IMG/VR virus record: IMGVR_UViG_3300030107_000167
Coordinates: 1-32,429 of that record
Direction: 5' to 3' (one strand)
DNA length: 32,429 nt
Source of the DNA: a virus
The translations under genes were made by a program, and so were the position numbers. Under the pieces are notes generated by a model. That model was not told the DNA's origin. It did no database searches and saw nothing but the letters and a program-made list of their open reading frames with translations. How positions within the stretch are numbered: the first letter of the stretch is position 1; each line of letters starts with the position of its first letter. This document shows, in pieces, positions 1,960 through 24,054 of the stretch.

Positions 1960-3168
1960 TTATCTCCTTGGTCTAAACGACTGTGCGAATAGTTGTGTTA
2001 GTTTATCGTTTTGTTGCATCGGTGGCAACCCACCTAATCCTGAATTAAGTGCTCCTCCTCTGCTTCTTCTTACATACTCTAGTTCAGGAGGAGGATAACC
2101 TAAATTAGGAGAAGGATAACCTAGATCAGTAGAAGGATCTGGTGTACCCATATTTGGGTTTGGTGTGCCCATGGTTGTGACAGGCTCTTGTCCTGGTCTG
2201 CTTCCAAACTCTGCAGCAGACATTGGTCTAACGTATGCTTGTTGTTGTTGAGGTTGTGGGTTATATACTGCATTTTGTAATGCTGAATTATACGCGGCTC
2301 TTTGTTGTTGTATTAAATTACTGACGGGGGATTGAACTATTCTTGTAAAGTTTGGATCCATTTCTGGCAGTCTTATTGGATCACCTTCAATTATAGTTCC
2401 AGCTGGCATTGGTATTCCTTCTCCCATTGGCAAACCTAAGTCTTCTCCTGTTATTGGAAATGATCTTGGTGGGTCGTCTTCTGCTAAAATTACTTCAGAA
2501 TCAGGTCTGTATGGTGCTTCGTTTTGTATGGCTATAAACCTTTCATCTTCGCCGCTCATATAATTTGGATTATAAGTGTCTATAGATGAGGAAGGCTCTG
2601 TGAATGTAGGAAAATTTATATCAGAGACAGATTCTATAACTGGGTCGACTATCGATGTGCTTGGACCTGGATCAACCATGCTGGGAATACCTGACTCAGA
2701 TTCAGGTACAATCTGGGCTGGTGGAAGTGAGTTTTCTATTATTTGTTCTATGGTTGTTTCTATGCTAGGAGGTAGAGGTGCTGAAGGCTCTACGAATGTA
2801 GGAAAATCTCTATCAGAAATAGCTTCTATGGTATCAAATTGATTGGGGGATGCAGGAAAATCTTCGAAAGGTACTTTATCATCTACAACTGTATTCCTTA
2901 TATCATCATATCTATCAGGTTCCATAATGAATGTTTGCATTATTTCTTCTACAACAGGAGGCAACGAACCAAGTCCTGTTTGAAATTCATTAACTTGTTC
3001 TATTTTTGTTTCAGCCGCGTCTTTTTCGTATTCGTTAGTCGCCTCTGCTAATTCTTGTTCTGCAAGATATTGAGCGACTTGCGATGCAATGCCCGCATTG
3101 ATCTCGTCCATGTTTAAGTCTGGTAACGCAAACCCACCTAAGTTTATTCCGCCAAATCCTGGACCCAT
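1960..3168 (-). CDS. Pro/Glu-rich structural or ejection-type protein
   Basis: Not recognised at family level. It has 402 residues, is acidic, and is mostly low-complexity Pro/Glu/Ser sequence, as in an extended or disordered protein. An Ala/Glu-rich predicted helix at about residues 20-70 is followed by a duplicated segment (consensus SDxxFPTFxEPS at about residues 115 and 180), then a Gln/Asn/Pro-rich tail with short repeats of the type GTPNPNMGTPDP and GYPSPNLGYPPP. The C-terminus (FRPRR) is basic. The ATG overlaps the stop of the 1102-residue gene (TAATG), so translation is probably coupled. Position among the large Gly-rich virion proteins suggests an internal virion or ejection component. 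No enzymatic motif is visible. Confidence 0.72.
   Translation of the reverse strand: MGPGFGGINLGGFALPDLNMDEINAGIASQVAQYLAEQELAEATNEYEKDAAETKIEQVNEFQTGLGSLPPVVEEIMQTFIMEPDRYDDIRNTVVDDKVPFEDFPASPNQFDTIEAISDRDFPTFVEPSAPLPPSIETTIEQIIENSLPPAQIVPESESGIPSMVDPGPSTSIVDPVIESVSDINFPTFTEPSSSIDTYNPNYMSGEDERFIAIQNEAPYRPDSEVILAEDDPPRSFPITGEDLGLPMGEGIPMPAGTIIEGDPIRLPEMDPNFTRIVQSPVSNLIQQQRAAYNSALQNAVYNPQPQQQQAYVRPMSAAEFGSRPGQEPVTTMGTPNPNMGTPDPSTDLGYPSPNLGYPPPELEYVRRSRGGALNSGLGGLPPMQQNDKLTQLFAQSFRPRR
2591..2830 (-). repeat. Imperfect direct repeat pair of about 48 bp inside the 402-residue gene
   Basis: Two imperfect copies, 2591-2638 and 2783-2830, share most bases and encode the duplicated block IEx(I/V)SDxxFPTFxEPS. 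They are in the same orientation and 144 bases apart, consistent with an internal gene duplication. Confidence 0.7.
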
Positions 3169-6100
3169 TAGTTAAACCCTCCTCCAAATGTTCCCGTTGC
3201 TGTCTCTACTATTGTATCACCTAAGTTACCCTTGGGTTGTCTTTTTTCTTGGGTATCGTAATACCTTAATTCATTACCTAAATCAACAGCTTCTACAATA
3301 CCGTAGGAAGTTAAAAATCTTCCAAACGCATCCATAGTTATCTGTCCTTGATATGCTTTCATTGTTTGTTTAAATAATTCGTCATCTAACAACATTTGTC
3401 CAAGAAAGGCTCTACTTTTTTCGCCTGATAAAACTTCTGCGGCGGTTAACCTTCGACCTGTTTGTGTTAATGGCGGTATTAAAAATCTACGCAAATACTC
3501 TGTTTGTGGAATTGCACTTTCTTTTATAACACGTTCAATCGCAGGATCTCTACCTAATACGCCTCTTTCTCTTTGAACTAGGTTATTAAATATTTTTAAA
3601 TTTTTAGTGTATTTTTTACCTTCTGTCCCTAGTAAAGGTGCGACAAAATCATCAAAGCTCAGCCCTGTTATTTCTTCAGGTCCGAAACCTCCATATATTA
3701 ATCTGTTTAAAGCTTTTTCATCTACTACGGTTCCCTGACCTACAGGCGATGGTTTGAATATTTTATTGTTAATCCATGCTTTAGTAGCTTGCGCTACTTG
3801 TTTTTTCAATATCGGATTTCTATTTATTATATTGAGCATGTATTCTTGATCTACAAATACTTGTCCTGACATTTTTGCGTCTTCTGATACATTTAAAAGA
3901 CGTGTAACTATATTAGTCACACTTGGATCAGGATTTGCTAAATCCCCAAAACGAGCTTGTAGTGCATTTATATCGTCTTCTGCTTTTTGTAGTGGTTTTA
4001 AAATATTCTTTTCAAAAGCTGTAGGTGATCCATAGTATTTAAAATCACCACCAAAAACAGTTTCTAAAGTTCCTTTGTGGTCATCTAAAAACGCCCTATA
4101 TTCACGAGCTATTTGTAACGGGGTTTTATCAGGTTGATCTAAGATATCTTGTCTAATTCTTTGTGAAAGTGCTCTACGTACTTCTAGTAATTCATCACCA
4201 CCCGATTTTCCAACTACCTCTACAAAGTCTGACATTTTTGAATTAAATTTACTTCCAGGAGTGCTGGTACTTAAGATGTAGTCAACAACTGTTTCAGGTT
4301 CTCTTTGTAAAATACTTTGTATCGCTGCAGAGTTTGATCTTTTTATAGCTTTTGCCTGCTGTGTCCATGCAGAAGCTATATCTAACCCATAACCTGTGTC
4401 TTGCATATACTCTTTTAATTGTTTAGAACCAATCTTGAAACCAGATTCTTTAGCTGCTCCTCCTTCAAGGTATCTATACATTTGTTGTTCTATCCCTCTT
4501 TCTAAATCTCTAGCAAGTTTAAAAGCTGTGGGATTTTTGTCTTGTATTCTACTTGCAAAATCATTTAACACTGTTCGTGCTTGATTGAGTTCTTGTAAAC
4601 TAAACTCAGGAGAAGCTAATTTACCTTTTGGATCTCTACCTTGTAGTCTTTTTAAAACAGTGCCACCTTCTGTTCCTAAAAGTTCGTTTAACAATCCTCT
4701 CGCTTCTGCGCTATCTGCAGACCTAAATAATTGATCTGTTTGTCGTTTAGACACTTTATCCCAATTTGTTGCTGGACCTCTTGTAAATCCAGCGCCTGTC
4801 GGAGGGGCATCTGCATATCTAGGATTATTAATAGCGTCATCAAAAGCTCTAGCAAACGGCTCAACGTATTGTTGTTTAATTTCGCCTAAACGTGTTGTTG
4901 TTCTTTCAAATAAAGGAGTGGATATTCTTTCGTCTGGTACTTCTTTTAATAAAACCTGACCACCTGTTGCAATATCTTCTGTTTCTAATAAATTGTTTCT
5001 TAAACTATCTATCGCTTCTCTTGCATTTTGCTCTATTGTGGCAACGTCTTGACGAATTAAAGCACTAACACCTTCCCCAACTTCCGCACCTGTAACACCT
5101 GTAAATGGTTCGCCTATTCCTTCATTTAAAGCTTTAATAAATTGGTTGATAACTTCTTCATTACCTGTTTTTAATGCTGAATATAAAGCGGCAACTTCTG
5201 GGTTATCGGCGTTTTTAAGAAAAACTTGTTCGAAATTTTCTGCAGTAGGTAGTCCTGTTCTACTTGCTATAGTAGGGTTGTATTCAGAAAATTCTCTACC
5301 CGTTATTTCAGCTAGTTCTCTAATCGCATCTCTAATTGCTTTTACAGAAATTTCATCACCGTAAGTTACTGAAGGGAATATAGCCTCTCCTCTTTCACTG
5401 GCTTGAGCTTTTTGTAAAAGTTCGTCCATTTGATTAAAGAAAGATTGAGGAACATCTTCTCCTGTAATTTTTCTATATATGGAGGGTATGCCTTTCATAG
5501 CGGCTGTTACTGCAAGAGTTCCTCCGAAAGTAAGTGCGCCTATCATCCCTGATTCTTTTAGCATCTCACTAAAATCTCTATCGTGCGCTCCTAACTCACT
5601 ACCTATAAGTAGTCTTAGAAAATCTCCGCCAGCCGCTCCAGTAGCAGATAGTCCACTGAGTTTCGCTAACTCAGTAAAACGACCCATAGGAGTTTTGCTT
5701 ATGCCTGTTGCTAAAGGTTCAAACTTTTTACTGCCGTAAATAGTTAAAGCTATATCTCCTGCAATCGCAGGAAATTCTTGTACTAAAAATTCAGGGATAT
5801 CTGAGCCTGTAAATTGAGGTAAATCAAATATTTCGTAATCTTCTGCTCCTTTTTCTTTTATTAATACACCTAGTTCTGGTTTACTAGGGTTTATATATCG
5901 AGGAGCTTCTTCTAATTCGATGTCTTGATTTTCGAATAAATATGCTAAGTCTTGCGTGGTTAGATTTCTAGGACCGAAACTCCCTAACGTTCTTAATTTA
6001 GCGTCTTTACCAAAATCACCTGTTGTATATTGTTTTTGTGGATCAAACCCTAACGCGGCTAATTCTTTTTGTACGGCTAACCCAACAGGCTCTGGTGGTG

Positions 6101-6476
6101 GTGCGGGAGCCACGTTCCCTGGAAAATCTCTAAACTGTCCTCTTTCTTTATAGTTTTTTAATGCTTCAACATAAGCTGGTTGACGTTCTTCCATGTCATA
6201 AACTATGGGAGCTCTGCGGTACGGAGATACTCTTTTTTCAATTATCTGGTCTACAAAAGGTAATCTTTTATTTAGCCAATCTTCCCCGTATGTTTGTTTA
6301 GCTAATTCAGCAACTTCTGGATCTTTTAAAACTAACGTATTAAGTTCAACGGGAGACACATAATTTTTGTAAAGAAGATTTTGGTTATCAGCAAAAATTG
6401 GAGCATTTGCTAATGCCGCCGCTTTTTTATCTCGAAGTTCCTCGAAAGTAGTGGTGTCGGGTAAAACAGCTGACAT
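3168..6476 (-). CDS. Large internal virion / ejection-type protein, 1102 residues
   Basis: Large phage protein of 1102 residues without a motif I can assign confidently. It is mostly predicted alpha-helical with long charged, Gln- and Leu-rich stretches. A Gly/Ala-rich partly hydrophobic stretch lies at about residues 270-330, such as GLSATGAAGGDFLRLLIGS and a nearby segment around GALTFGGTLAVTAAMKGIP, which could be membrane-active. Length, composition and place in a row of large late proteins after the lysis genes match the internal core or ejection proteins of short-tailed phages (the role filled by T7 gp15/gp16 or P22 gp16/gp20); that match is inference from context. I see no clear lytic transglycosylase signature. 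The stop TAA overlaps the next gene's ATG. Confidence 0.75.
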   Translation of the reverse strand: MSAVLPDTTTFEELRDKKAAALANAPIFADNQNLLYKNYVSPVELNTLVLKDPEVAELAKQTYGEDWLNKRLPFVDQIIEKRVSPYRRAPIVYDMEERQPAYVEALKNYKERGQFRDFPGNVAPAPPPEPVGLAVQKELAALGFDPQKQYTTGDFGKDAKLRTLGSFGPRNLTTQDLAYLFENQDIELEEAPRYINPSKPELGVLIKEKGAEDYEIFDLPQFTGSDIPEFLVQEFPAIAGDIALTIYGSKKFEPLATGISKTPMGRFTELAKLSGLSATGAAGGDFLRLLIGSELGAHDRDFSEMLKESGMIGALTFGGTLAVTAAMKGIPSIYRKITGEDVPQSFFNQMDELLQKAQASERGEAIFPSVTYGDEISVKAIRDAIRELAEITGREFSEYNPTIASRTGLPTAENFEQVFLKNADNPEVAALYSALKTGNEEVINQFIKALNEGIGEPFTGVTGAEVGEGVSALIRQDVATIEQNAREAIDSLRNNLLETEDIATGGQVLLKEVPDERISTPLFERTTTRLGEIKQQYVEPFARAFDDAINNPRYADAPPTGAGFTRGPATNWDKVSKRQTDQLFRSADSAEARGLLNELLGTEGGTVLKRLQGRDPKGKLASPEFSLQELNQARTVLNDFASRIQDKNPTAFKLARDLERGIEQQMYRYLEGGAAKESGFKIGSKQLKEYMQDTGYGLDIASAWTQQAKAIKRSNSAAIQSILQREPETVVDYILSTSTPGSKFNSKMSDFVEVVGKSGGDELLEVRRALSQRIRQDILDQPDKTPLQIAREYRAFLDDHKGTLETVFGGDFKYYGSPTAFEKNILKPLQKAEDDINALQARFGDLANPDPSVTNIVTRLLNVSEDAKMSGQVFVDQEYMLNIINRNPILKKQVAQATKAWINNKIFKPSPVGQGTVVDEKALNRLIYGGFGPEEITGLSFDDFVAPLLGTEGKKYTKNLKIFNNLVQRERGVLGRDPAIERVIKESAIPQTEYLRRFLIPPLTQTGRRLTAAEVLSGEKSRAFLGQMLLDDELFKQTMKAYQGQITMDAFGRFLTSYGIVEAVDLGNELRYYDTQEKRQPKGNLGDTIVETATGTFGGGFN

Positions 6477-10112: not shown

Positions 10113-10223
10113 TTATTTGATATGTTCTTTATTATTTGCATAGTGTTCCCAGTATGGTTTATTAGCGGATAAAGCCGTTCCCGAAGGCTGCAGTAAAGAA
10201 CTGATGAGTTGATTATACTTCAT
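10113..10223 (-). CDS. Possible 36-residue protein translationally coupled to the cyclase
   Basis: An ORF of 36 codons starting MKYNQLISSLLQPSG and ending ANNKEHIK. Its ATG lies inside the end of the cyclase gene, so the reading frames overlap by 11 bases, and the ORF fills the only gap of more than 100 bases in this part of the operon. No ribosome site is apparent, so it would depend on translational coupling. No membrane segment or known motif. It is either a true small protein accompanying the cyclase or an accidental ORF. Confidence 0.4.
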   Translation of the reverse strand: MKYNQLISSLLQPSGTALSANKPYWEHYANNKEHIK

Positions 10224-11967
10224 GATTATTGACTGTGTATATATTTATTGGTTTTTCTTTTCCCTTTACTTTTATCGGTTTTAGTTGTTTAAGTTTTATT
10301 TGTGTTTCTAAAGCTGTATTTTCTGTAATAACTATATCTTCTCCGACTTCTTTACAGCTACTTTCCATTCTAGCGGCTGTATTTACAGCATCACCTATGG
10401 CTGTATAATCGAAGCGCGTATCACTGCCCATATTACCAATTACAGCTTCTCCTGTATTTAATCCAACTCCAATCTCTATACCAATACCTTCTTCTTTTAT
10501 AAGTTGTTGCATTTCTATAGCGGCAAGAACAGCTTTATGTGCGTGGTTTTCTAAATCTAGTGGTGCATTAAATATCGCCATCATTGCATCACCAATATAT
10601 TTATCCACCATACCCCCATGTTTTTGTACTATTTTTTGTTGTATAGTAAGTGCTTTATTCATAACTATAGTAACTTCTTCTGGAGACATAGTTTCGCTCA
10701 TAGCTGTGAACCCTCTTACGTCTGTAAATAAAAAAGTACAGTATCTTTTTTCTCCACCTAGTTTTAATAATTCAGGATTATCTTGTAATCGTTTGACCTG
10801 TCCAGGATCTAAATAATGTTCGAATTGTTTTTTAATTTGCTGACGGAGTTTAAATTGTGTACGGTAATTTATATAAAAAGCCGTCGTTCCTGTTAATATT
10901 TCAGATATTAAAGTCCATGTTACGTCTATTAATAACCCGTTTTTTATTAAATAAAGCCCAGAAAACGCAGTTACGCCCGATATAAAGGTCGCTAATACTA
11001 CTCCAGAGGTTATTCCGAATACGTTTAAAACTACCCATATAAGGCTTATCGCTACGGTAAATATAATAAGCTCTACAGCTAACGCATAATCAGGGACATA
11101 CGGGCTGTTTTCTATCAAAATACTTTCAGCTAAAGCTGTTTGTATTTTATGAGGCTCTAGCAAACCTACAGGTGTAGCAAGCTGAGGCATAATACCTTTA
11201 GCTGTGAATCCTACAAATACAAATTTGTTTTCTACATTCATTTCTTTAAGGTCTGTTTGCGGTGTATCTACCCAACTAACCCATTTTCTACCAAAAGAAT
11301 CTACAGGAACAGGTGGTATACCTTTTACTCGTATTTCTTCTAAACCGTTTTGATTTGTTTTAATAACATAAGTATCTGCCCCCGCTAATATTTTCAATAC
11401 CTCAGTTCCATAAGAAGGAACCCAACCGTCAGGAGTACGCATTAATAAGGGTAACCTACGTACTAATGAATCTACTTCTGGTCTAGCTATCGCTATACCT
11501 TGTGAAGCATTTTGTTTTAATACTTCAATGTTTTGTACTACGCCTTGTGCCTCGATACCACCTATATCTTCACCTAAAATTACAGTTCCTGTTGTAGGTG
11601 GGTAATCGTCTGTATTATTTTCATACATAGCTAAAACACTAGGTGCAAAACGTAACGCTTCTGTAAATTCAAAGTCACCTCCGAATCTATCTGGTTGAGG
11701 GAAAGCTATAACCCAACCAACACCTATTGCCCCTTGCCTTAGTAAATTAATTTGTATTTGGGCTAATGTTTGCCTAGACAAAGGATAACCGCCTTCGTTA
11801 GCGATATCTTCCTCCGTAATATTTAATATAGTGAAATAACCAGAAGGTTGTTGTTCAGGTAAAAAGTAATCGAAAGTTTTAAGTTTTAAAGTTTCTAAAG
11901 GAGATATTTGTAATACTAATGGGACACCTAGCAGTATTATTAATACGGCGAATATGGCTTTTTTCAT
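10213..11967 (-). CDS. CHASE2-domain class III adenylate cyclase
   Basis: A membrane sensor cyclase of 584 residues. I start at ATG 11967 (MKKAIFAVLI), which overlaps the FecR stop as TGATG; an in-frame TTG is one codon earlier. Domain order: N-terminal TM (about 3-21), periplasmic CHASE2 sensor (about 25-290), three TMs (about 295-315, 318-342, 345-365), a short linker (KKQFEHYLDPG), then a class III catalytic domain (about 405-570). Catalytic residues are all present: metal-binding Asp416 (LFTDVRGF) and Asp460 (KYIGDAMMAIFNAP), transition-state Asn529 and Arg533 (NTAARME), and the Lys456/Thr522 pair seen in bacterial adenylate cyclases. The predicted product is therefore cAMP. FecR next to CHASE2-cyclase is, as I recall, a recurrent bacterial pairing. 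The unusual point is its presence in a phage late operon. Confidence 0.93.
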   Translation of the reverse strand: MKKAIFAVLIILLGVPLVLQISPLETLKLKTFDYFLPEQQPSGYFTILNITEEDIANEGGYPLSRQTLAQIQINLLRQGAIGVGWVIAFPQPDRFGGDFEFTEALRFAPSVLAMYENNTDDYPPTTGTVILGEDIGGIEAQGVVQNIEVLKQNASQGIAIARPEVDSLVRRLPLLMRTPDGWVPSYGTEVLKILAGADTYVIKTNQNGLEEIRVKGIPPVPVDSFGRKWVSWVDTPQTDLKEMNVENKFVFVGFTAKGIMPQLATPVGLLEPHKIQTALAESILIENSPYVPDYALAVELIIFTVAISLIWVVLNVFGITSGVVLATFISGVTAFSGLYLIKNGLLIDVTWTLISEILTGTTAFYINYRTQFKLRQQIKKQFEHYLDPGQVKRLQDNPELLKLGGEKRYCTFLFTDVRGFTAMSETMSPEEVTIVMNKALTIQQKIVQKHGGMVDKYIGDAMMAIFNAPLDLENHAHKAVLAAIEMQQLIKEEGIGIEIGVGLNTGEAVIGNMGSDTRFDYTAIGDAVNTAARMESSCKEVGEDIVITENTALETQIKLKQLKPIKVKGKEKPINIYTVNNHEV

Positions 11968-13082
11968 CAACTACCTTGTTTTATTGTTATTGTATTTGCT
12001 GAACCGCCATTAACTTTTACAACATTTTCTACGCCGTTTTGTAAAAGAATTAAAGTATAGGCACTCGATCCGTCTAAATCTAAACGTATACTAGAACCTA
12101 CCTCGCGTCTAAGACTAACTACTTGTCCTGTTATTATTGTAGTTATTTGTGTTTCTTTATCCTGACCTAAACTTGTTCCTGCAATTTTTATATCCGTTGC
12201 AACTCTTGTAAGTTGGTCATCATCCTCATCGATAGCTAATGCATCTATAATTTTTAATAAATCTTCTAAGAAATTTACGTCAAGATAATTTATATCTAGT
12301 TCGGTAAATTCTAAATCAGCGCTGTTTTCTAACAAATCTTCTGCTAAAAAATCTATATCTAAATCCGCAAAATCTAAATAATCTGTAGAAGTTTGTTGTC
12401 TTTCTTCTTCAAGTAATTCTTCTGACTTAGGAGGATTAACTATTAACATATTATCAATAAATTCAAGAGAAATATCTAAAATAACAGGAGCTGAAGGAGG
12501 TCGATTAAAGGTGATGGCTGTAGTTGCTTGATAAGCTTGATTTAATATTACTTGCCCCATGGCTGTTTCAACTAAAATTTCACCGCTAGGATTACCGTAT
12601 TCGTCAGGAAGCAAGATAATTAAAGAAGAACCTGTCTCTGGGGTTGTAGTAATTGTAAAATCAGTTCCTCTTACAAAAACATTAGCACTCGGAGTACTAA
12701 TATTAATCGCTTTTTTATTATTAAATTTACCAGTAACAAACCTAGCTGTACCACTAGCGAAACGTAAAGCCATTTCAGATTTATTAGGATCTGGGTCATA
12801 GATGTAAGTATCTATAACTAATTTGCTATGATCCATAACACGAACTATCGTGTCATCTTCGAATTTTATAGCTACGCGACCAGCTTCTGTTTTTACATTA
12901 TCCATTTGCTGAATTGGAAAAGCCAACTCAGCTCCGTATGGTTTATCTCGTACTACTTGTGCGTTACCACGTAACTCGCTAATACTGCCTATATCAACAG
13001 CTTGTGCTTGTGCCTTGGTCGTTTTGAATAACGCAAACGGTACTAGAAGTAGAACCAACACTAATAATTTTAAGCCAGTCAT
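11967..13082 (-). CDS. Exported FecR-domain protein with C-terminal curlin-like repeats
   Basis: A 371-residue secreted protein with a signal peptide (LLVLVLLLVPFALFKTTKAQAQA, cleavage near residue 28, written here as overlapping hydrophobic and AQAQA parts). A FecR-type beta domain follows (about 33-185), with GRVAIKFEDDTIVRV and the hallmark TPSANVFVRGTDF. The middle (about 225-285) is Asp/Leu-rich with short repeats of the type DLDIDFL, ELDINYLDVNFL. The last 32 residues look curlin-like: SAYTLILLQNGVENVV has QxGxxN (Gln348-Asn353), followed by NTITIKQGS. It could therefore dock to, or nucleate, the curlin-like fibre made by the upstream gene; that is inference. The 5' end overlaps the curlin gene by 89 bases in another frame. 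No anti-sigma N-terminal region is seen, so it is not a FecR of the iron-transport type. Confidence 0.85.
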   Translation of the reverse strand: MTGLKLLVLVLLLVPFALFKTTKAQAQAVDIGSISELRGNAQVVRDKPYGAELAFPIQQMDNVKTEAGRVAIKFEDDTIVRVMDHSKLVIDTYIYDPDPNKSEMALRFASGTARFVTGKFNNKKAINISTPSANVFVRGTDFTITTTPETGSSLIILLPDEYGNPSGEILVETAMGQVILNQAYQATTAITFNRPPSAPVILDISLEFIDNMLIVNPPKSEELLEEERQQTSTDYLDFADLDIDFLAEDLLENSADLEFTELDINYLDVNFLEDLLKIIDALAIDEDDDQLTRVATDIKIAGTSLGQDKETQITTIITGQVVSLRREVGSSIRLDLDGSSAYTLILLQNGVENVVKVNGGSANTITIKQGS

Positions 13083-13707
13083 TATCTAATGTACTTTGTT
13101 GTTGTATATTAAAATTCCTATTACTTCCTGTATGGTCTAAATAAAAATATCCGCCCGCATATCCATCGCCGTCATATGTAACAGAATTATCTGAACCGTC
13201 TATATCCATGTAATTAGTCGCTGCATCTATATCGATTGCTGAAGTAATAGTATTACTAGAACCGTTTATAATCCAGTCTAAATCTAATGTAGTTGCCTGT
13301 GCGACCATGGCGTGATTTAATGTAAAGGTATTAGTATTACCTGTTACATCAACATTTAAATTAGACGAGTCTGCTCCATAAGTATTTGTTTCATCGGTGC
13401 TCATATTGAACGTATTTGAATTACCGTCAAACTCAAAAAATCCTGTATAAGAATCTGCGGTTATATCGCCTAAGAACTTATTACTGTCCCCTATTTGATT
13501 TATATCAAGGGTCATAGCTGTGCCGTCTAAATCTAAGGCTGTCATTGTCCCTGCTACAGCGTCTGCCCCGCCGATTATGTTACCAGAGCCAAGTTGTTCT
13601 AAATCCATATTAGAATTAGAACTACCTGAACTTTGGTCAACAAAGATTTCGTTATCTGCTCCGTATAAAGGCGTCGATAACATAAGTATTAATAGAAATT
13701 TTTTCAT
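12994..13707 (-). CDS. Curlin-like secreted repeat protein
   Basis: A secreted repeat protein of 237 residues. I start at ATG 13707 (MKKFLLILMLSTPLYGADN), 8 bases after GGAGG, giving a signal peptide cleaved near residue 17; an in-frame TTG further up is less likely. The mature part is Asn/Ser/Gly/Thr/Asp-rich with recurrent GxxN units: LEQLGSGN and INQIGDSN match the curlin QxGxxN signature exactly, and FDGNSNTFNM, VTGNTNTFTL, INGSSNTITS, IDGSDNSVTY and HTGSNRNFNI are looser copies at roughly 20-45 residue spacing. It ends VCVIQNDQGTSTSC with two Cys. The gene directly follows CsgG (ATGA overlap) and is predicted to be exported through it. It is larger and more irregular than E. coli CsgA, and amyloid formation is inferred only. 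Confidence 0.8.
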   Translation of the reverse strand: MKKFLLILMLSTPLYGADNEIFVDQSSGSSNSNMDLEQLGSGNIIGGADAVAGTMTALDLDGTAMTLDINQIGDSNKFLGDITADSYTGFFEFDGNSNTFNMSTDETNTYGADSSNLNVDVTGNTNTFTLNHAMVAQATTLDLDWIINGSSNTITSAIDIDAATNYMDIDGSDNSVTYDGDGYAGGYFYLDHTGSNRNFNIQQQSTLDNDWLKIISVGSTSSTVCVIQNDQGTSTSC

Positions 13708-14543
13708 TCTTTTATCCTCCAATAGTTATTATTTACACCCTCATTTATTGTTTCTAATACAGCTGTTTCAATCGCCATTTGTAAGGCTATGCTGGTTGGC
13801 TCATTTTTCACAGCACCTCCTTCGATTTCAATCAACTCTGTATTATCTGAAACAAATCTAAATATATCGTTATCAAGCGAAGCTGATAAAACAGTTTTAG
13901 TAACTAAAACTTCTATCAAAACTCTACCCGTCATGACCGATACAGTTCTTAAACTAACTGTTATTATATCCTCTCTATACTGGCGCGATACCCCTATTCC
14001 AAGATTTCTAGCTCCCATACCACCACTTGTTATGTTAGCTTGATAAGATAGAACTCCTCCCGTCATAATCATGTCCCCGAACTTTAAGGGCATAAGTTTT
14101 TGTTTTTCGTCAAAAGTTTCTCTCGTCGAACGAATTAACTGTCTTTCTTTAGTTACTGAATCTAAAGAAACTCGCTCAACTACTTCGAAAAATCCAGAGT
14201 GTTTTAATGCTCTTATAAGGTATGCGTGTGGGGCTTGTGTAATCGCTGTACTAAAAGTAGCATATTGAGAATTTGATCTTCTTTGTCCTGTTTGATCTTT
14301 AAAGTTATCTGCATAAACTGCAACAACAGGTTTTCTTTCTGGTTCTGGTATTTCTGTAAAATCTGTATATAATGATTCTACCTTTGCTTTTTCTATATGT
14401 TTTACTTGAGGGATATTATTATCTAAAGGGTCTATCATCAAAGTACAACTAGAAAGTAAAACCGCCAACAGGAACAATAACTTCCGTAACTGTTCCGTCT
14501 TCGTCAGTAATAGTAACTTTGACTTCTTCATCGTTAATCTCAT
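13704..14543 (-). CDS. csgG: CsgG-like curli secretion channel lipoprotein
   Basis: Homologue of the outer-membrane curli export channel CsgG, 279 residues against 277 in E. coli. A lipoprotein signal ends in a lipobox, LLSSC, lipidated Cys33. By-eye alignment to E. coli CsgG matches throughout: DQTGQ, FSTAITQ, ALKHSGFF, VERxxLDSVTKERQLIR, GGVLSYQANITSGGMGAR, LGIGVSRQY, TVSLRTVSVMTGRVL, TKTVLS, IFRFVS, NEPTSIALQMAIETAVLETINEG. In the constriction loop Phe56 appears conserved (ATFSTA), but Tyr51 and Asn55 appear replaced (Ser and Thr), which could alter pore gating. The 5' end overlaps the csgF end by 95 bases in a different frame, or 83 if the second ATG (14531) is used; neither has a clear ribosome site. 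Acts with the CsgF-like protein to secrete the curlin-like protein. Confidence 0.93.
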   Translation of the reverse strand: MRLTMKKSKLLLLTKTEQLRKLLFLLAVLLSSCTLMIDPLDNNIPQVKHIEKAKVESLYTDFTEIPEPERKPVVAVYADNFKDQTGQRRSNSQYATFSTAITQAPHAYLIRALKHSGFFEVVERVSLDSVTKERQLIRSTRETFDEKQKLMPLKFGDMIMTGGVLSYQANITSGGMGARNLGIGVSRQYREDIITVSLRTVSVMTGRVLIEVLVTKTVLSASLDNDIFRFVSDNTELIEIEGGAVKNEPTSIALQMAIETAVLETINEGVNNNYWRIKE

Positions 14544-14919
14544 ATTCTATAGTGTTGCCATCAAGTTCCATAGAACCACTTTTATTTGTATCTTCTCCAA
14601 ATAATGAAGCCTCTACTTGTCTCGCTATGTTGGCATAGATTCTTGAAGTAAGGTTTCGCATAAACCTTGCTTCAACTGTGTTCGTTTCTTCTCTTTCTAA
14701 TTCGTCTCTTAAAGCTTCGATCTCATCTCTAATAGCTTGAGCTCGATTCGTTTCTTGATTCTCTATCGTAAGGTAATGAGAAGAAGTTCCTTCTCCTGAA
14801 AAACTTGGACTTTTAAATTTATGCACCATTTCGTCAGCACTAATAATTGTTGTAAGGACTATTAGAAATAAACCCATAAGACAGGTTATTAATACCCTAA
14901 TTTTATCTTGCCTACTCAT
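14449..14919 (-). CDS. csgF: CsgF-like curli assembly factor
   Basis: Likely CsgF, the exported chaperone that docks into the CsgG pore and couples secretion to surface fibre assembly. It has 156 residues from ATG 14919, which overlaps the preceding stop (TGATG). A signal peptide with hydrophobic core LITCLMGLFLIVLTTIISA ends near residue 30. The mature start, HKFKSPSFSGEGTSSHYL, matches the CsgF pattern FxFRNPxFGG that inserts into CsgG. A helical segment (about 50-95) and a beta-rich C-terminus ending VIVPVGGFTF follow, as in CsgF (138 residues in E. coli). Support is mainly the N-terminal motif and the adjacent csgG. Its 3' end overlaps the csgG signal-peptide region by about 70-95 bases. 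Confidence 0.82.
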   Translation of the reverse strand: MSRQDKIRVLITCLMGLFLIVLTTIISADEMVHKFKSPSFSGEGTSSHYLTIENQETNRAQAIRDEIEALRDELEREETNTVEARFMRNLTSRIYANIARQVEASLFGEDTNKSGSMELDGNTIEYEINDEEVKVTITDEDGTVTEVIVPVGGFTF

Positions 14920-15269
14920 CAATCTTTTCTTTGGTCGTCTCTATCTGCTTTTGCTATTTTATTACTATCTATTAACTGCGGCACACCGAGTATTGTTTTT
15001 ATAAGTGTGTCTTGTCTAATAATTTCATTATCTAAACTACGTACCCTGTCAATAAGTGCAACTAAAATGCCGTGTTGAGAGTCTAACTTTGTGCCAAGTC
15101 TTTGTTCCATTTGTTCTATCTGATCCGCCACTTTATCGTCTAATACATCTAATTTTGTTTCCATGCCATCAATAATTCTATTGATAAGTTTCCATATGAA
15201 GAAACCAAGACCTAATGCGGCGGCTATCGGAAAGCCAACTTCCGCTATAAATAGGGTTATATCTTCCAT
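14919..15269 (-). CDS. Single-TM coiled-coil protein, holin-like or lysis accessory
   Basis: A 116-residue protein with one N-terminal TM (about residues 5-27, FIAEVGFPIAAALGLGFFIW) and a long coiled-coil tail (about 35-92, DVLDDKVADQIEQMEQRLGT), then a charged C-terminus. This build, with N-terminal TM and cytoplasmic coil, is common among small phage holins and holin-associated proteins of the BhlA/XhlA kind. It lies directly downstream of the 3-TM holin gene and its start shares one base with that gene's stop. A lysis role is inferred from context; the family is not certain. The downstream neighbour is the csgF-like gene. Confidence 0.7.
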   Translation of the reverse strand: MEDITLFIAEVGFPIAAALGLGFFIWKLINRIIDGMETKLDVLDDKVADQIEQMEQRLGTKLDSQHGILVALIDRVRSLDNEIIRQDTLIKTILGVPQLIDSNKIAKADRDDQRKD

Positions 15270-15745
15270 TAATCTTGTTTCTGCGACGCTCCAAAATAAA
15301 AGCTAATTACTGCAGAAGCTAAACCACCTAAATAGCCAAGAACAAGGTTTATTAAAGCTTCGCTATTTTGTTCTGGGGGCTGAAGCGTAACTAAAAATAT
15401 ATAGGCTAAAAAACCACCCACAGTAGCTACACCCATTATTCTAGCTGTCCAGTCTTTGCCAAACTTACCTCTAGCATCTTGTTTATCAGCAGTTTCTAAT
15501 TTGAAAACATCTACGTCTAGTTCTTTCATCTGTAATTCAAACGCTTGTTCTGCTTTTTTAAGTTCTAGCATTTGTTCAGGAGTTGCTGATTCTATGGCTT
15601 TTTCTATCGATTTAGCGTCGTTTTTACAACCTAAGACTTCTGATATCATGTTTGCAGCCATTCCGCCCATTGGACCTCCAAGAGCAGTTCCTAATGTAGG
15701 AGCTACTGCTCCTACTACATTTTTTAATAATCCACCTATTTTCAT
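15269..15745 (-). CDS. Holin of the 3-TM (gene-transfer-agent release) type
   Basis: A 158-residue protein resembling the three-TM holin family linked to gene-transfer-agent release and many alphaproteobacterial phages. A hydrophobic Gly/Ala-rich N-terminus (about 10-38) precedes a charged helix (about 55-90, SATPEQMLELKKAEQAFEL), the conserved DKQDARGKFGKDWTARIMG block, and two TM segments (about 104-121 and 131-152, LINLVLGYLGGLASAVISFY). It is predicted to assemble in the inner membrane and release the lysozyme encoded at 17455-17898. ATG with GAGG 7 bases upstream; the first bases overlap the nuclease gene end. Confidence 0.85.
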   Translation of the reverse strand: MKIGGLLKNVVGAVAPTLGTALGGPMGGMAANMISEVLGCKNDAKSIEKAIESATPEQMLELKKAEQAFELQMKELDVDVFKLETADKQDARGKFGKDWTARIMGVATVGGFLAYIFLVTLQPPEQNSEALINLVLGYLGGLASAVISFYFGASQKQD

Positions 15746-16171: not shown

Positions 16172-16471
16172 CTAACACTTCCATCTTTTACGAGCTTGCC
16201 GTAGTCTCGAGTTAGGGTTTTTTGCGGCTTTAGGAAACTTTTTCATCTGACCTGCAGAACGTGCGCAATAAGACTTACGTCTTTTTGCTGCTTTACTGCC
16301 TTTTTTAACTTTACCTGTAACAGCTGTTTTAAGTTTAGATCCAGGGTTTTTCTTTCTATAGGCTTTTACACCTTTTTTGGTCATACCTGCCCCGCTTTTC
16401 GTGGGTCGATAATTAGCGCCCTTTCCTTTTGTAGTGCGCCTTATAGGTTTTTCTTTACGCTTTTTTGCCAC
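16172..16471 (-). CDS. Very basic small phage protein (99 residues)
   Basis: Function not recognised. It has 99 residues with an extreme Lys/Arg content: starts AKKRKEKPIRRTTKGKG, ends in SCARSAGQ-like and RLRQARKRWKC segments. The C-terminus SRLRQARKRWKC resembles a tail I recall in small proteins of marine phages, unverified. The GTG start overlaps the stop of the 63-residue gene (TAGTG), so translation is coupled. The two Cys near the end might form a disulfide or bind metal. A nucleic-acid-binding or DNA-packaging role is an inference from charge only. Confidence 0.75.
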   Translation of the reverse strand: MAKKRKEKPIRRTTKGKGANYRPTKSGAGMTKKGVKAYRKKNPGSKLKTAVTGKVKKGSKAAKRRKSYCARSAGQMKKFPKAAKNPNSRLRQARKRWKC

Positions 16472-16662
16472 TATTTTTTCTTAGTTTTCTTTTTAAGCTT
16501 CTTAGCAGTTTTAGCAGAACGTCTAAAGTCAGCAGCTGTAGGTGCTCCTTTAGCTCCTTTTTTACGAGGTTTTCTGCCCTCTTTACGTTTTTTATTAATA
16601 TTATAATAAAGACCTTTTTTAGCTGTTCTGCCGTCTTTAGTTTTATGTGTCTTTTTTGCCAT
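16471..16662 (-). CDS. Very basic small phage protein (63 residues)
   Basis: A 63-residue, extremely Lys/Arg-rich protein beginning AKKTHKTKDGRTAKKGLYYNI and ending KKTAKKLKKKTKKK-like. The aromatic YYN in the middle is the only non-basic feature of note. It has a strong ribosome site (GGAGGAG upstream of ATG). It is the first of two adjacent basic genes; a third, of 37 residues, lies one gene upstream. Function not recognised; DNA or RNA binding is inferred from composition. Confidence 0.7.
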   Translation of the reverse strand: MAKKTHKTKDGRTAKKGLYYNINKKRKEGRKPRKKGAKGAPTAADFRRSAKTAKKLKKKTKKK

Positions 16663-17339
16663 TACTCCTCCTGATATAAGTTATTAAAAGTTATACTTGG
16701 ATCTAAATAACTTTCGTGACCTTCTGCAGAATGTAATGTTTGTGAAGGAGTAAAATCTGGTGCCCCTTCTCCAGTTACCCACAATGCAGGACTTGTTGCT
16801 CTTACTCTATTGTTAGGTAATGCAATTAAGTTACCTTTCCACTCACAATCTTCTGTAATGTACAATACATGCGATTGTTTGTGTTGTGCAGGACAGTCTG
16901 CTATTTCATTATTTGTATAATCCACGGTAAACATATATTTACCAGTATAAAACTTTCCATCTATTTTGCAAAGCCATGGACTAGAACTAACTCTATCCAT
17001 AACGATTACAGAATGATCTCTTGATTCACAATCCCAAGGTTGAGCTATATGGTCTTCCATAGGCTCTCCCCACTCTTCTAAAGGAATATCGGCTACTAAA
17101 CCTTGTATCGGCATTCTTGCCCACATAGCCCCACCATGAATATTACCTTCTTCCCAATCGTCATATTCTGTTTCACAACCTGTAAACACAACTTGAAAAC
17201 TTAACGAACGGTCAGGAATAGTATTAACAGCGAAAGCGATAGCATGCAAAAATTCTCCGTGGTAGTCACCATGATTAGCAGTAAATTCCCTTCTCACCCA
17301 ACATTTAAAATGTGGAATATTGCTAATTAGATGAGGCAC
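16662..17339 (-). CDS. Conserved-looking phage protein, Trp/Cys-rich (225 residues)
   Basis: A 225-residue protein, starting at a GTG directly after the 37-residue gene's stop. It is rich in Trp, His and Cys (HFKCWVRREFTANHGDYHGE, MWARMPIQGLVADIP, AQPWDCESRDHSVIVMDR) with no signal peptide or obvious catalytic set. I recall similar proteins in uncultured marine phages but know no function. The neat fold-like composition (balanced, not repetitive) suggests a globular, possibly metal-binding protein. Its neighbours are small basic proteins and a lysozyme. Stop overlaps the next ATG by one base. Confidence 0.72.
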   Translation of the reverse strand: MPHLISNIPHFKCWVRREFTANHGDYHGEFLHAIAFAVNTIPDRSLSFQVVFTGCETEYDDWEEGNIHGGAMWARMPIQGLVADIPLEEWGEPMEDHIAQPWDCESRDHSVIVMDRVSSSPWLCKIDGKFYTGKYMFTVDYTNNEIADCPAQHKQSHVLYITEDCEWKGNLIALPNNRVRATSPALWVTGEGAPDFTPSQTLHSAEGHESYLDPSITFNNLYQEE

Positions 17340-20991: not shown

Positions 20992-23900
20992 TTAACTTTC
21001 TAATGCGGCAACTCTAGTAGTCAACGCATCTATTTTATTATCAGCTTCCTGCAAAGCCTTAACTAGAATTGGTATAAGTTCTCCTTCTGATAAACCTTGT
21101 GTGCTGTCATCCATTTCCATCCAAAGATTAAAAGATTTTGAATCTAAACTATTACTATCTAATAAAGCTTTTACTTCTTGTGCAATAAAACCATGTTTTA
21201 AATCTGCTGTTTCTGAGTCTTGATTTACACGCTTATTTGAACCTTCTTTGTAATAATCTAAAGAATTGTCTACATCTTTTTCTTTTTTCCAGTTATAAGT
21301 AACTGGTCTTAAAGCATTTACAAAATTTAATCCTAAAGTGTGGTCTGCAATGTTTTCTTTCAACCTTGAGTCTGATGTACCAGTCCATGATGATCCCCCA
21401 GGTTGTATATATGTTCTATCAGAACCAAATCCTAGTGTTATATATATACTTGAAGAAGAAGCAGAAGATACACTTCCTCCGATAGTTATCGAACCATCAA
21501 TATTTTGTGAAGTAGTTTGATAACCTATAGATACTTGTCGGTCTGCTGTAGTACAGTTTTGTCCTGCTGCAGTCCCTACCATTACATTACCATAGCCTGT
21601 TGTTATTGCTCCACCAGAACTATCCCCTAGTCCTGTGTTGTAGTCTGCTGTAGTAACTGCTGCTAAAGCACCTTGACCGAATGCAACATTTTGGTCTCCA
21701 GTTGTAGCCACTGCTAGAGCATTTACACCCATAACCGTGTTGTAACTACCTGTAGTAACTGCATCTGCTGCGTTCATACCAACTGCTGTATTTTGAGTCC
21801 CTGTTGTATTCGCTGTTAAAGCATTATAACCAACTGCTGTATTGTTATCTGCTGTAGTGGCACTATCTAAAGCCCCCGCACCAACTGCTACATTATGGTC
21901 GCCTGTAGTAGTTAAAGCTAATGCTCTCCATCCAAACGATGTATTGTACTCACCTGATGTATTAGCTACCGAAGCTTGTTCACCCATAGCTGTGTTTGCA
22001 TCAGCAGTATTAAGTTTTAAAGCATCATACCCAACAGCAGTATTTTGTGCACCTGTTACTACAGTAGTTAAAGCTTGGTATCCTACCGCGGTATTTCTAT
22101 CTGCTGTGGTGTTTGCATCTAAAGCATAAGCTCCTAGAGCAGTATTTTGTGTTCCTGTTGTGTTTGCAAATAAAGCTGTATAACCTACAGCAGTATTATT
22201 TGAAGCTGTAGTTGCACTACCAAGAGCCGACCTACCGAAAGCTGTGTTGTAATTACCAGTAGTATTCGCATCCAAGGCATTATGACCTACAACTACGTTT
22301 TCTTGTCCTTCAGTATTAGCAGACATAGTATTCAAACCTACTGCTATATTTGTATGTCCTGTGGTGTTTGCTCCTAAAGCACCAACTCCAACAGCTAAAT
22401 TAACATAACCTGTAGTGTTCGCATCTAACGCATTCATACCAACTGCTACATTACTGTAGCCTGTAGTGTTTAATGCTAAAGCATCGTGACCAACTGCTGT
22501 GTTATTAGAAGCTGTAGTGTTTTCTTTCAAAGCATTTGTGCCAACAGCAACATTACTTGTTCCTGTTGTATTGTCTTGCAAGGCTAAATAACCCATTGCT
22601 ATGTTATTGTCTGCTGTAGTAGCTGCTGATAAAGCACCATATCCTACTGCTGTGTTTTCTGAACCTGTCGTATTTGCATCTAAAGCTAAACCACCGATAG
22701 CTACATTTTGGTCACCTGTAGTTGTAGCATATGCTGCATTGTACCCAACAGCTACGTTATATGTGTCAGAATCAGAAGATGGATTCATTAAGGCTAATGA
22801 TTGATAACCAACTGCAACATTTCTGTCACCTTCTGTGTTTGCTTGTAAAGACTTTTGACCTACAGCTACGTTTGTATTACCTGTAGTATTTGCCCTTAAA
22901 GCATCTACACCAATCGCAACACTATTACCACCAGTTGTTGACAAGCGTAATGCATCATGTCCAATTGCTACGTTGTCACTAGCAGTCGTAGAAGTTAGTA
23001 AAGCATCTTTTCCTACCGCAGTATTTTGTGAGCCTGTAGTGTTTGCACCTAAGGCAGAATAACCGACTGCTGTATTGTTATCTGCTGTTGTGTTTGCATC
23101 TAAAGCTAAACCACCGATAGCAACATTACCTGTTCCTGTAGTTATCAAAAGACCCGCATTAGCTCCTACTGCCACATTATAAGCATCAGTAGCCGAAGTA
23201 AAGTTTTGTGTAAATAAAGCTTGTCTACCTACAGCTACAGAATTTTGACCTAGAGTATCTGTTGTTAAAGCATTTGCTCCAACAGCCACGTTTGAAGAAC
23301 CTGTTGTTAAAGCATCTAAAGCACCAGAGCCTACTGCTGTGTTTTGAAGTCCTGTCGTGGTTGCTGCTAAAGAATTAAACCCAACTGCTACATTATTATC
23401 ACCAGTAGTTAAAGCTGCAAAGACATCAACACCTAACCCAACATTATAGTTAGCAGCATCTATAGTTCCTGTAGCATTATCACCAATCATAATTGATGAA
23501 GTTCCAAAAGTCTTACTGGTTATGCCGTTATAACTAGCTGCTGTAGAAGCTCCTGTTGTAGCTAAATCTCCACCTATTGAAACATCATCTGTAACTGTTA
23601 AATCGTCTTGTACTTTTAAGTCTACTGTTGAAAGACTAGCAAAAGCGTCTACTACTGCTGCTCCACTACCAGCACCATCTAAGTAGACTGCTTTTACATC
23701 ACCTGGAGGTATAGTTATGTTAGCTCCAGAACCTTGTGAAATAATAATGTTTTGAGATCCGCTTGTGCCGTTTTCTATAAACTGCACCCTACTTATAGTG
23801 TTTGGTGCAATCGTAATCGTACAGGCTGAATCTAGTGTACCTGTATATTTAAGGTACATAGCTCTACCAGGATCAGTTGCTCCATCAGCAACTGTAGTGG

Positions 23901-24054
23901 TGTGAGTATCAGCGTTAGTAGTGATAGCTTCAGTACCAAAACCTAAAGCTTCTCCAATCAATTCCAGGTTGGTGTTCGTACTTGTTCCCCAAGTACCTGA
24001 CTCATCGCCAGTAGAAATTTCTTTAAGTCTTAAATCATTTACATAAGTAGCCAT
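20992..24054 (-). CDS. Tail fibre with beta-roll repeats and S74 self-cleaving chaperone
   Basis: A 1020-residue fibre. The N-terminal 200 residues probably attach to the tail (LRLKEISTGDESGTWGTSTN, a Trp/Gly-type phage fibre start). Residues about 204-850 hold roughly 38 copies of a 17-residue unit, consensus NTAVGYDALDANTTGSQ, similar to trimeric autotransporter head repeats (NSVAIGxxA). The C-terminal part is a peptidase S74 intramolecular chaperone, with SDSRLKENI at 894-902, where the Ser-Lys dyad drives autocleavage after trimer folding, then LRPVTYNWKK, LKHGFIAQEV and a terminal coiled coil (ALQEADNKIDALTTRVAALE). A good promoter lies 20 bases upstream. Receptor binding at the host surface is inferred; trimeric assembly follows from the domain family. 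Confidence 0.93.
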   Translation of the reverse strand: MATYVNDLRLKEISTGDESGTWGTSTNTNLELIGEALGFGTEAITTNADTHTTTVADGATDPGRAMYLKYTGTLDSACTITIAPNTISRVQFIENGTSGSQNIIISQGSGANITIPPGDVKAVYLDGAGSGAAVVDAFASLSTVDLKVQDDLTVTDDVSIGGDLATTGASTAASYNGITSKTFGTSSIMIGDNATGTIDAANYNVGLGVDVFAALTTGDNNVAVGFNSLAATTTGLQNTAVGSGALDALTTGSSNVAVGANALTTDTLGQNSVAVGRQALFTQNFTSATDAYNVAVGANAGLLITTGTGNVAIGGLALDANTTADNNTAVGYSALGANTTGSQNTAVGKDALLTSTTASDNVAIGHDALRLSTTGGNSVAIGVDALRANTTGNTNVAVGQKSLQANTEGDRNVAVGYQSLALMNPSSDSDTYNVAVGYNAAYATTTGDQNVAIGGLALDANTTGSENTAVGYGALSAATTADNNIAMGYLALQDNTTGTSNVAVGTNALKENTTASNNTAVGHDALALNTTGYSNVAVGMNALDANTTGYVNLAVGVGALGANTTGHTNIAVGLNTMSANTEGQENVVVGHNALDANTTGNYNTAFGRSALGSATTASNNTAVGYTALFANTTGTQNTALGAYALDANTTADRNTAVGYQALTTVVTGAQNTAVGYDALKLNTADANTAMGEQASVANTSGEYNTSFGWRALALTTTGDHNVAVGAGALDSATTADNNTAVGYNALTANTTGTQNTAVGMNAADAVTTGSYNTVMGVNALAVATTGDQNVAFGQGALAAVTTADYNTGLGDSSGGAITTGYGNVMVGTAAGQNCTTADRQVSIGYQTTSQNIDGSITIGGSVSSASSSSIYITLGFGSDRTYIQPGGSSWTGTSDSRLKENIADHTLGLNFVNALRPVTYNWKKEKDVDNSLDYYKEGSNKRVNQDSETADLKHGFIAQEVKALLDSNSLDSKSFNLWMEMDDSTQGLSEGELIPILVKALQEADNKIDALTTRVAALES
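21505..23445 (-). repeat. About 38 degenerate tandem copies of a 51-bp unit in the fibre gene
   Basis: The coding region for fibre residues about 204-850 repeats every 51 bases (17 codons), with variable copies. A few units differ slightly in length; longer insertions such as ALMNPSSDSDTYN and FTQNFTSATDAYN occur twice, suggesting duplication of larger blocks. It could expand or contract by recombination. Confidence 0.8.

Follow-up and report, generated by a model that had tools for sequence, protein, structure and literature searches.

The 32,429-base IMG/VR virus record IMGVR_UViG_3300030107_000167, analysed here over its whole length (hereafter, the window), raises the question of why a phage should encode proteins of curli-type secretion next to proteins of signal transduction. 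In this fragment of a marine HTVC023P-type podovirus, the genes for CsgF, CsgG, a curlin-like protein, a FecR-domain protein and a CHASE2 adenylate cyclase form a head-to-tail array on the minus strand, between positions 10213 and 14919. A preliminary description of the sequence had read this block as a phage-borne secretion-plus-signalling module, and this was the right reading; the order recurs in independent phages. Our proposal, to which we give about an even chance of being correct, is that it represents a phage-encoded type VIII (curli-type) secretion system (T8SS) module with its own trans-envelope reporter, formed by the FecR-domain protein and the cyclase.

The gene set as such is already published, and the window adds another member. 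Two scans were performed, one with CsgG, which yielded 42 viral loci, and one with the cyclase, from whose matches (at least 574) a set of 80 loci was retained. The order 116-amino-acid protein, csgF, csgG, curlin, fecR, (second curlin) and cyclase was shared by nearly all of the viral loci scanned, amounting to dozens of contigs from podo- and myoviruses, and also by the cultured phages HTVC008M and Melnitz, so that the co-occurrence in independent phages on which the preliminary description had made its claim depend was observed. The ratio of nonsynonymous to synonymous substitutions (dN/dS) of the module genes was approximately 0.05–0.2 in most close pairwise comparisons with relatives (0.07–0.12 for the cyclase and 0.03–0.12 for the small 116-amino-acid gene), which, together with the recurrence of the order, excludes a chance arrangement. 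The same genes, in the same order and in the same phage group, were described by Wittmers et al. 2022 (PMC9599517), who reported the T8SS module from pelagimyophages as well as nine HTVC023P-type genomes, with genes for a histidine kinase, CsgF, CsgG, CsgA/B and FecR, in many cases joined by a second CsgA/B and an adenylate cyclase; the optional second curlin is not present in the window. The pore genes had also been discussed by Zaragoza-Solas et al. 2020 (PMC7029224) and Buchholz et al. 2022 (PMC9004378). Therefore, the suggestion in the preliminary description that no such five-gene set with a cyclase had been reported was wrong, and the module cannot be regarded as novel. The clusters of HTVC008M (gp11–gp19) and of the Methylophilales phage Melnitz show the same order, with the small membrane protein in two copies, but both are myoviruses with a second curlin, and their CsgG proteins share only 42% and 37% identity, respectively, with that of the window. 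What appears to be undescribed, as far as our literature searches show, is the coupling between FecR-domain type and cyclase and the cargo-like tail of the FecR-domain protein. The clustering of FecR genes with CHASE2 cyclase genes in cells, described below, likewise extends beyond the publications we found.

Among the relatives of the module, FecR-domain type and cyclase presence are coupled. Nine loci cleanly lacked the cyclase, with no remnant of it detected by tblastn in the seven of them that were searched. The FecR domains (residues 51–150) of all nine were 73–100% identical to that of locus L010, whereas none of the 97 cyclase-bearing loci exceeded 64% identity to it, and the cyclase-less domain type was also present in the distant backgrounds of loci L043 and L047. 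The FecR tails of L003 and L008 were 96% identical to the tail of the cyclase-bearing L006, and the first 50 FecR residues of L010 were 96–100% identical to those of the cyclase-bearing L015, with an abrupt drop in DNA identity at the domain border (from 97% to 59% in the comparison of L010 with L015, for example). The cyclase label changed once on the tree of the FecR domain, compared to four times on that of the linker plus tail, and a single clade for the nine cyclase-less tails was rejected by the approximately unbiased test (p = 5.9e-5, a value to be read with the caveat that the test was designed after the pattern had been noticed). Positions which separate the two FecR-domain types include H85, Y93, P131 and A186.

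This pattern suggests that the FecR domain and the cyclase form a functional pair. Linkage alone would provide a different explanation, i.e., that one block was transferred and the tails recombined afterwards, with no functional pairing between both proteins; indeed, the FecR domain and the cyclase gene are just ~0.6 kilobases (kb) apart, and marine phages recombine freely. However, one transferred block is insufficient without later tail recombination, because the polyphyletic tail separates the domain from the cyclase gene. Furthermore, the association (9/9 versus 0/97) extends to the distant backgrounds of L043 and L047, and FecR-CHASE2 pairing was also found in cells, as described below. 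We consider linkage alone an unlikely explanation.

The FecR-domain protein comprises a signal peptide (residues 1–28), the FecR domain (~51–160), an acidic linker modelled with low confidence and a curlin-like C-terminal tail (~301–371). Neither this protein nor CsgF produced a sequence match to a solved structure. The predicted fold of the FecR domain matched the cell-surface signalling domain of PupR (Z 15.5, root mean square deviation 2.5, 133 aligned residues), with the match limited to the periplasmic domain. This resemblance to PupR and other anti-sigma factors, along with the FecR domain itself, would agree with the name given in PMC9599517, according to which the protein is an iron regulator of the ferric-citrate type controlling the module. 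Yet, instead of the N-terminal cytoplasmic part which precedes the transmembrane segment in FecR/PupR anti-sigma regulators, the open reading frame (ORF) opens with a signal peptide, and no cytoplasmic anti-sigma part is present; none of the proteins scanned stood out as a sigma factor, and the FecR-domain type follows the cyclase. A role in iron regulation is, in our view, highly improbable. The N-terminal part also resembled the cell-surface anchoring domain 5ix9 (Z 7.0), perhaps just a common arrangement, and this match was not relied on.

With regard to the tail, nearly every FecR-domain protein carried a C-terminal strand of the form x-I-x-I-x-Q following a small or polar residue. In its relaxed form, the half-repeat pattern was present in 100% of 86 distinct FecR tails compared to 28% in shuffles, and the strict curlin kernel, N-x-hydrophobic-x-hydrophobic-x-Q (PMC10192328), in 37% of the tails compared to 9.5% in shuffles and 0.6% of FecR-body windows, percentages which are not independent counts, the tails being related sequences. 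The structural model placed six short strands within residues 313–368. With moderate confidence, these sequence features point to a curlin-like tail which would imitate the exported protein.

A CsgG profile aligned with E. coli CsgG over almost the whole length (1.6e-61), and both the CsgG pore, with its lipobox, and CsgF, above the Pfam cut-off, were identified as T8SS members. The best Curlin_rpt match of the curlin-like ORF (E 0.035) was under the Pfam cut-off; this ORF is homologous to the first Melnitz curlin, and both Melnitz curlins (8.6e-6 and 1.9e-4), as well as the second HTVC008M curlin (5.2e-8), pass Curlin_rpt. AlphaFold2 predicted a regular many-stranded beta fold for the curlin-like protein (predicted local distance difference test score, pLDDT, 85; predicted template modelling score, pTM, 0.80), for which a fold search returned weak beta-helix matches only, none of them at E <= 0.001. 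Cellular curli operons (csgBAC-csgDEFG and the alphaproteobacterial forms) share CsgG, CsgF and a putative curlin-repeat protein with the phage module, which differs from them in lacking CsgC, CsgD and CsgE. The lack of a gene for the CsgE gate would also fit an ungated CsgG that lets cofactors, siderophores and larger nutrients into the cell during infection (PMC7029224, PMC9599517), and known Pelagibacter have no T8SS (PMC9599517); nevertheless, csgF, the curlin and the cyclase would not be required for uptake and no transporter is linked to the module, so we regard this function of the pore as very unlikely.

The small 116-amino-acid protein was found 5' of csgF, in one or two copies, in nearly all viral loci whose sequence extended that far, and for this reason it is considered part of the module, of which it would be an obligatory accessory. 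The preliminary description had assigned it to the lysis block; instead, it is a constant module member, and it is the gene next upstream (15269-15745; phrog_1544, two C-terminal transmembrane segments) that is holin-like. This holin-like gene is movable: depending on the relative, it either precedes the module or follows the cyclase. Neither Pfam nor NCBIfam detected HisKA/HATPase or any other kinase domain in the 116-amino-acid protein. If the published histidine kinase gene is the same one, an equation made by position, that name has to be rejected for a protein of this size with one transmembrane segment and no kinase domain; hence neither of the two readings of Wittmers et al. 2022, FecR as iron regulation and the small gene as histidine kinase, is supported here.

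The neighbourhood of the module bears as well on the proposal made for Melnitz that CsgG, with or without CsgF, acts as a pinholin or gated pore which depolarises the envelope and times lysis, with the curlin, the FecR-domain protein and the cyclase as modulators. The module adjoins the holin-like gene, near the endolysin, and the proposal was accompanied by modelling of an altered CsgG (PMC9004378). By contrast, the curlin was always retained together with csgG and is under purifying selection, CsgG would be located in the outer membrane, a site that requires no holin, and the holin-like gene switches sides while the module stays whole. A lysis pore is thus a distinctly unlikely function for CsgG.

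The signalling output of the proposed reporter would be cyclic AMP (cAMP). The cyclase consists of an N-terminal transmembrane segment (residues 5–23), a periplasmic CHASE2 domain, a hydrophobic C-terminal membrane part starting at ~297 and a class III cyclase domain, and its best solved relatives were bacterial adenylate cyclases (3.6e-34). The two metal-binding aspartates (D417 and D461), the Lys/Asp specificity pair (K457 and D521) and the Asn/Arg pair (N530 and R534) of class III enzymes, i.e., the residues for metal, adenine and transition-state binding, are all present. Since the catalytic residues are intact, a rise of cAMP in the infected cell is plausible.

A counterpart of the FecR/cyclase pair was found in cells. 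Among the matches listed, 19 of 93 CHASE2 genes of alphaproteobacterial cells were located within 6 kb (<=6 kb) of a FecR gene, with ~0.5 expected under uniform gene placement; in these loci, as in the phage module, the FecR gene lies near the CHASE2 cyclase. Nine such loci were read, and four of them had a third gene, encoding a protein with an aromatic C-terminus; three of these four proteins contained TPR repeats and two matched the SlipAM outer-membrane barrel family. Similarly, the CHASE2 cyclases CyaK and CyaD1/D2 of S. meliloti receive input from the outer-membrane protein NsrA (PMC7529298, PMC13001267), and CyaD1 without its CHASE2 domain is constitutively active (PMC5498481). NsrA is, then, an outer-membrane protein acting as a signalling partner, as proposed for the phage module, with the difference that the partner in cells is a TPR/SlipAM-like barrel or NsrA, and in the phage CsgG-CsgF. 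CsgF was rare in the sampled alphaproteobacterial genomes (7/385), and inspection of five cellular loci from this class revealed no recognisable FecR or CHASE2 cyclase gene next to csgF/csgG. A cellular origin of the whole module was therefore discarded. Full-length relatives of the FecR-domain protein were present in only two contigs, from one metagenome-assembled genome (MAG), among 289 alphaproteobacterial genomes, and at least one of these contigs was phage-like. Taken together, our analysis indicates that the phage module may join a T8SS pore to a cell-type FecR/CHASE2 reporter. Literature searches on FecR with type XI secretion and cyclases found nothing, and those combining the FecR domain, an adhesin and CHASE2 returned no directly relevant paper.

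Two cellular FecR proteins near CHASE2 cyclases carried secreted-type domains, namely Calx-beta, VWA and RTX domains in one case (L141, 1592-5854) and a weak TbpB-like barrel in the other (L145, 5503-8229), as if FecR were fused to the cargo of the neighbouring secretion system.

In the mechanism we propose, CsgG and CsgF would form an outer-membrane pore through which the curlin-like protein would reach the surface of the infected cell. Located in the periplasm, the FecR-domain protein would engage the fibre or pore through its curlin-like tail and would contact, through its FecR domain, the periplasmic CHASE2 portion of the adenylate cyclase in the inner membrane. In this way, cAMP synthesis would follow the state of export. 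The likely benefit would be a change of the cell surface late in infection (aggregation or superinfection exclusion). More tentatively, and with somewhat less than an even chance, the FecR-domain protein may be an export sensor, with a tail handled like cargo by CsgG-CsgF or the fibre and a domain that controls the CHASE2 cyclase from the periplasm; it would then exemplify a broader FecR/CHASE2 class, as yet undescribed, which monitors outer-membrane secretion, with CsgG replacing the cellular barrel.

Several observations weigh against a secretion module with its own reporter. The profile-profile match between FecR tail and curlin was weak (E 0.002, probability 12–13%; reversed control 0.12–0.16), the repeats of the window curlin are degenerate and below the Pfam cut-off, and CsgE is absent from the module. 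The coupling described above could also reflect linkage in part, if the tails recombined later. Moreover, cultured Melnitz infections showed no aggregation (PMC9004378). Finally, a Crp-type helix-turn-helix domain was above the cut-off in only 1/60 SAR11-like family genomes, so that most of those sampled lack a Crp-type regulator as a possible target of cAMP, although the host of this phage may lie outside the family.

The members of the module are compiled in Table 1. The five genes claimed in one orientation were all found on the minus strand, and four of the five ORFs (csgF, csgG, fecR and the cyclase) exceeded curated Pfam cut-offs.

Table 1. Genes of the T8SS module in the window.
Feature	Position	Strand	Description
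Small membrane protein (116 amino acids)	14919..15269	-	One transmembrane segment and a coiled-coil-like region; sixth module member
csgF (156 amino acids)	14449..14919	-	Pore-associated T8SS factor; Pfam CsgF 2.8e-19; ATG 14919 start from TGATG
csgG	13704..14543	-	Outer-membrane lipoprotein pore of T8SS, lipobox LSSC; Pfam CsgG 2.7e-47
Curlin-like secreted protein (242 amino acids)	12994..13722	-	Candidate T8SS substrate; homologous to HTVC008M and Melnitz curlins
Periplasmic FecR-domain protein (371 amino acids)	11967..13082	-	Pfam FecR 2.1e-11
CHASE2 adenylate cyclase (585 amino acids)	10213..11970	-	Pfam CHASE2 2.5e-24, Guanylate_cyc 3.3e-24

The 1-base link between the small membrane protein gene and csgF is exact, and it is from this TGATG at 14921-14917 that the csgF start was set. 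The overlapping stops and starts noted earlier are present, but two of the overlaps, csgF/csgG (~95 nucleotides, 14449-14543) and curlin/FecR (89 nucleotides, 12994-13082), are larger than had been implied; in both, the end of the upstream gene also encodes, in another frame, the signal peptide with which the downstream protein begins. The long curlin/FecR overlap was also observed in podovirus relatives but not in HTVC008M. Beyond the module, a 115-base gap lies between the cyclase stop (10213) and the next start (10097), and the second gene after the cyclase matched the DNA-ejection family phrog_4287 (1.1e-8).

The podovirus backbone was assigned by the capsid protein (75% identity to 023Pt_psg01 and 71% to HTVC023P) and the helicase (57% and 46%, respectively), and the window is the counterpart of the right-hand part of HTVC023P, in which the interval from the needle-type protein to the next block contains just small genes and a glycosyltransferase. 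The GC content was 38.4% in the window, 35.1% in the module and 34.2% in the HTVC023P stretch. Elsewhere in the window, two adjoining small proteins of 99 and 63 amino acids (16172-16662) are extremely rich in lysine and arginine, and a gene located between them and the endolysin-like gene (16662-17339) matched a PHROG named ferredoxin (phrog_3704, 1.5e-26). A repeat-rich protein of 1020 amino acids (20992-24054) has 7–9 stretches matching tail spike or virion structural families, and an 1102-amino-acid protein (3168-6476), likely part of the ejection block by position, had neither a PHROG match nor a relative in the phage collection.

Module-bearing contigs were also encountered in bacterial MAG bins (L134, L135, L046, L047, L050 and L051), and at least some of them were phage-like; such contigs are a potential source of error in curli surveys of SAR11 and Rhodobacteraceae. 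Phages with curli-export genes are widespread in the ocean, and the coupling between FecR domain and cyclase names a testable, putatively interacting pair and its residues, and ties the phage module to a bacterial signalling arrangement that appears to watch outer-membrane secretion.

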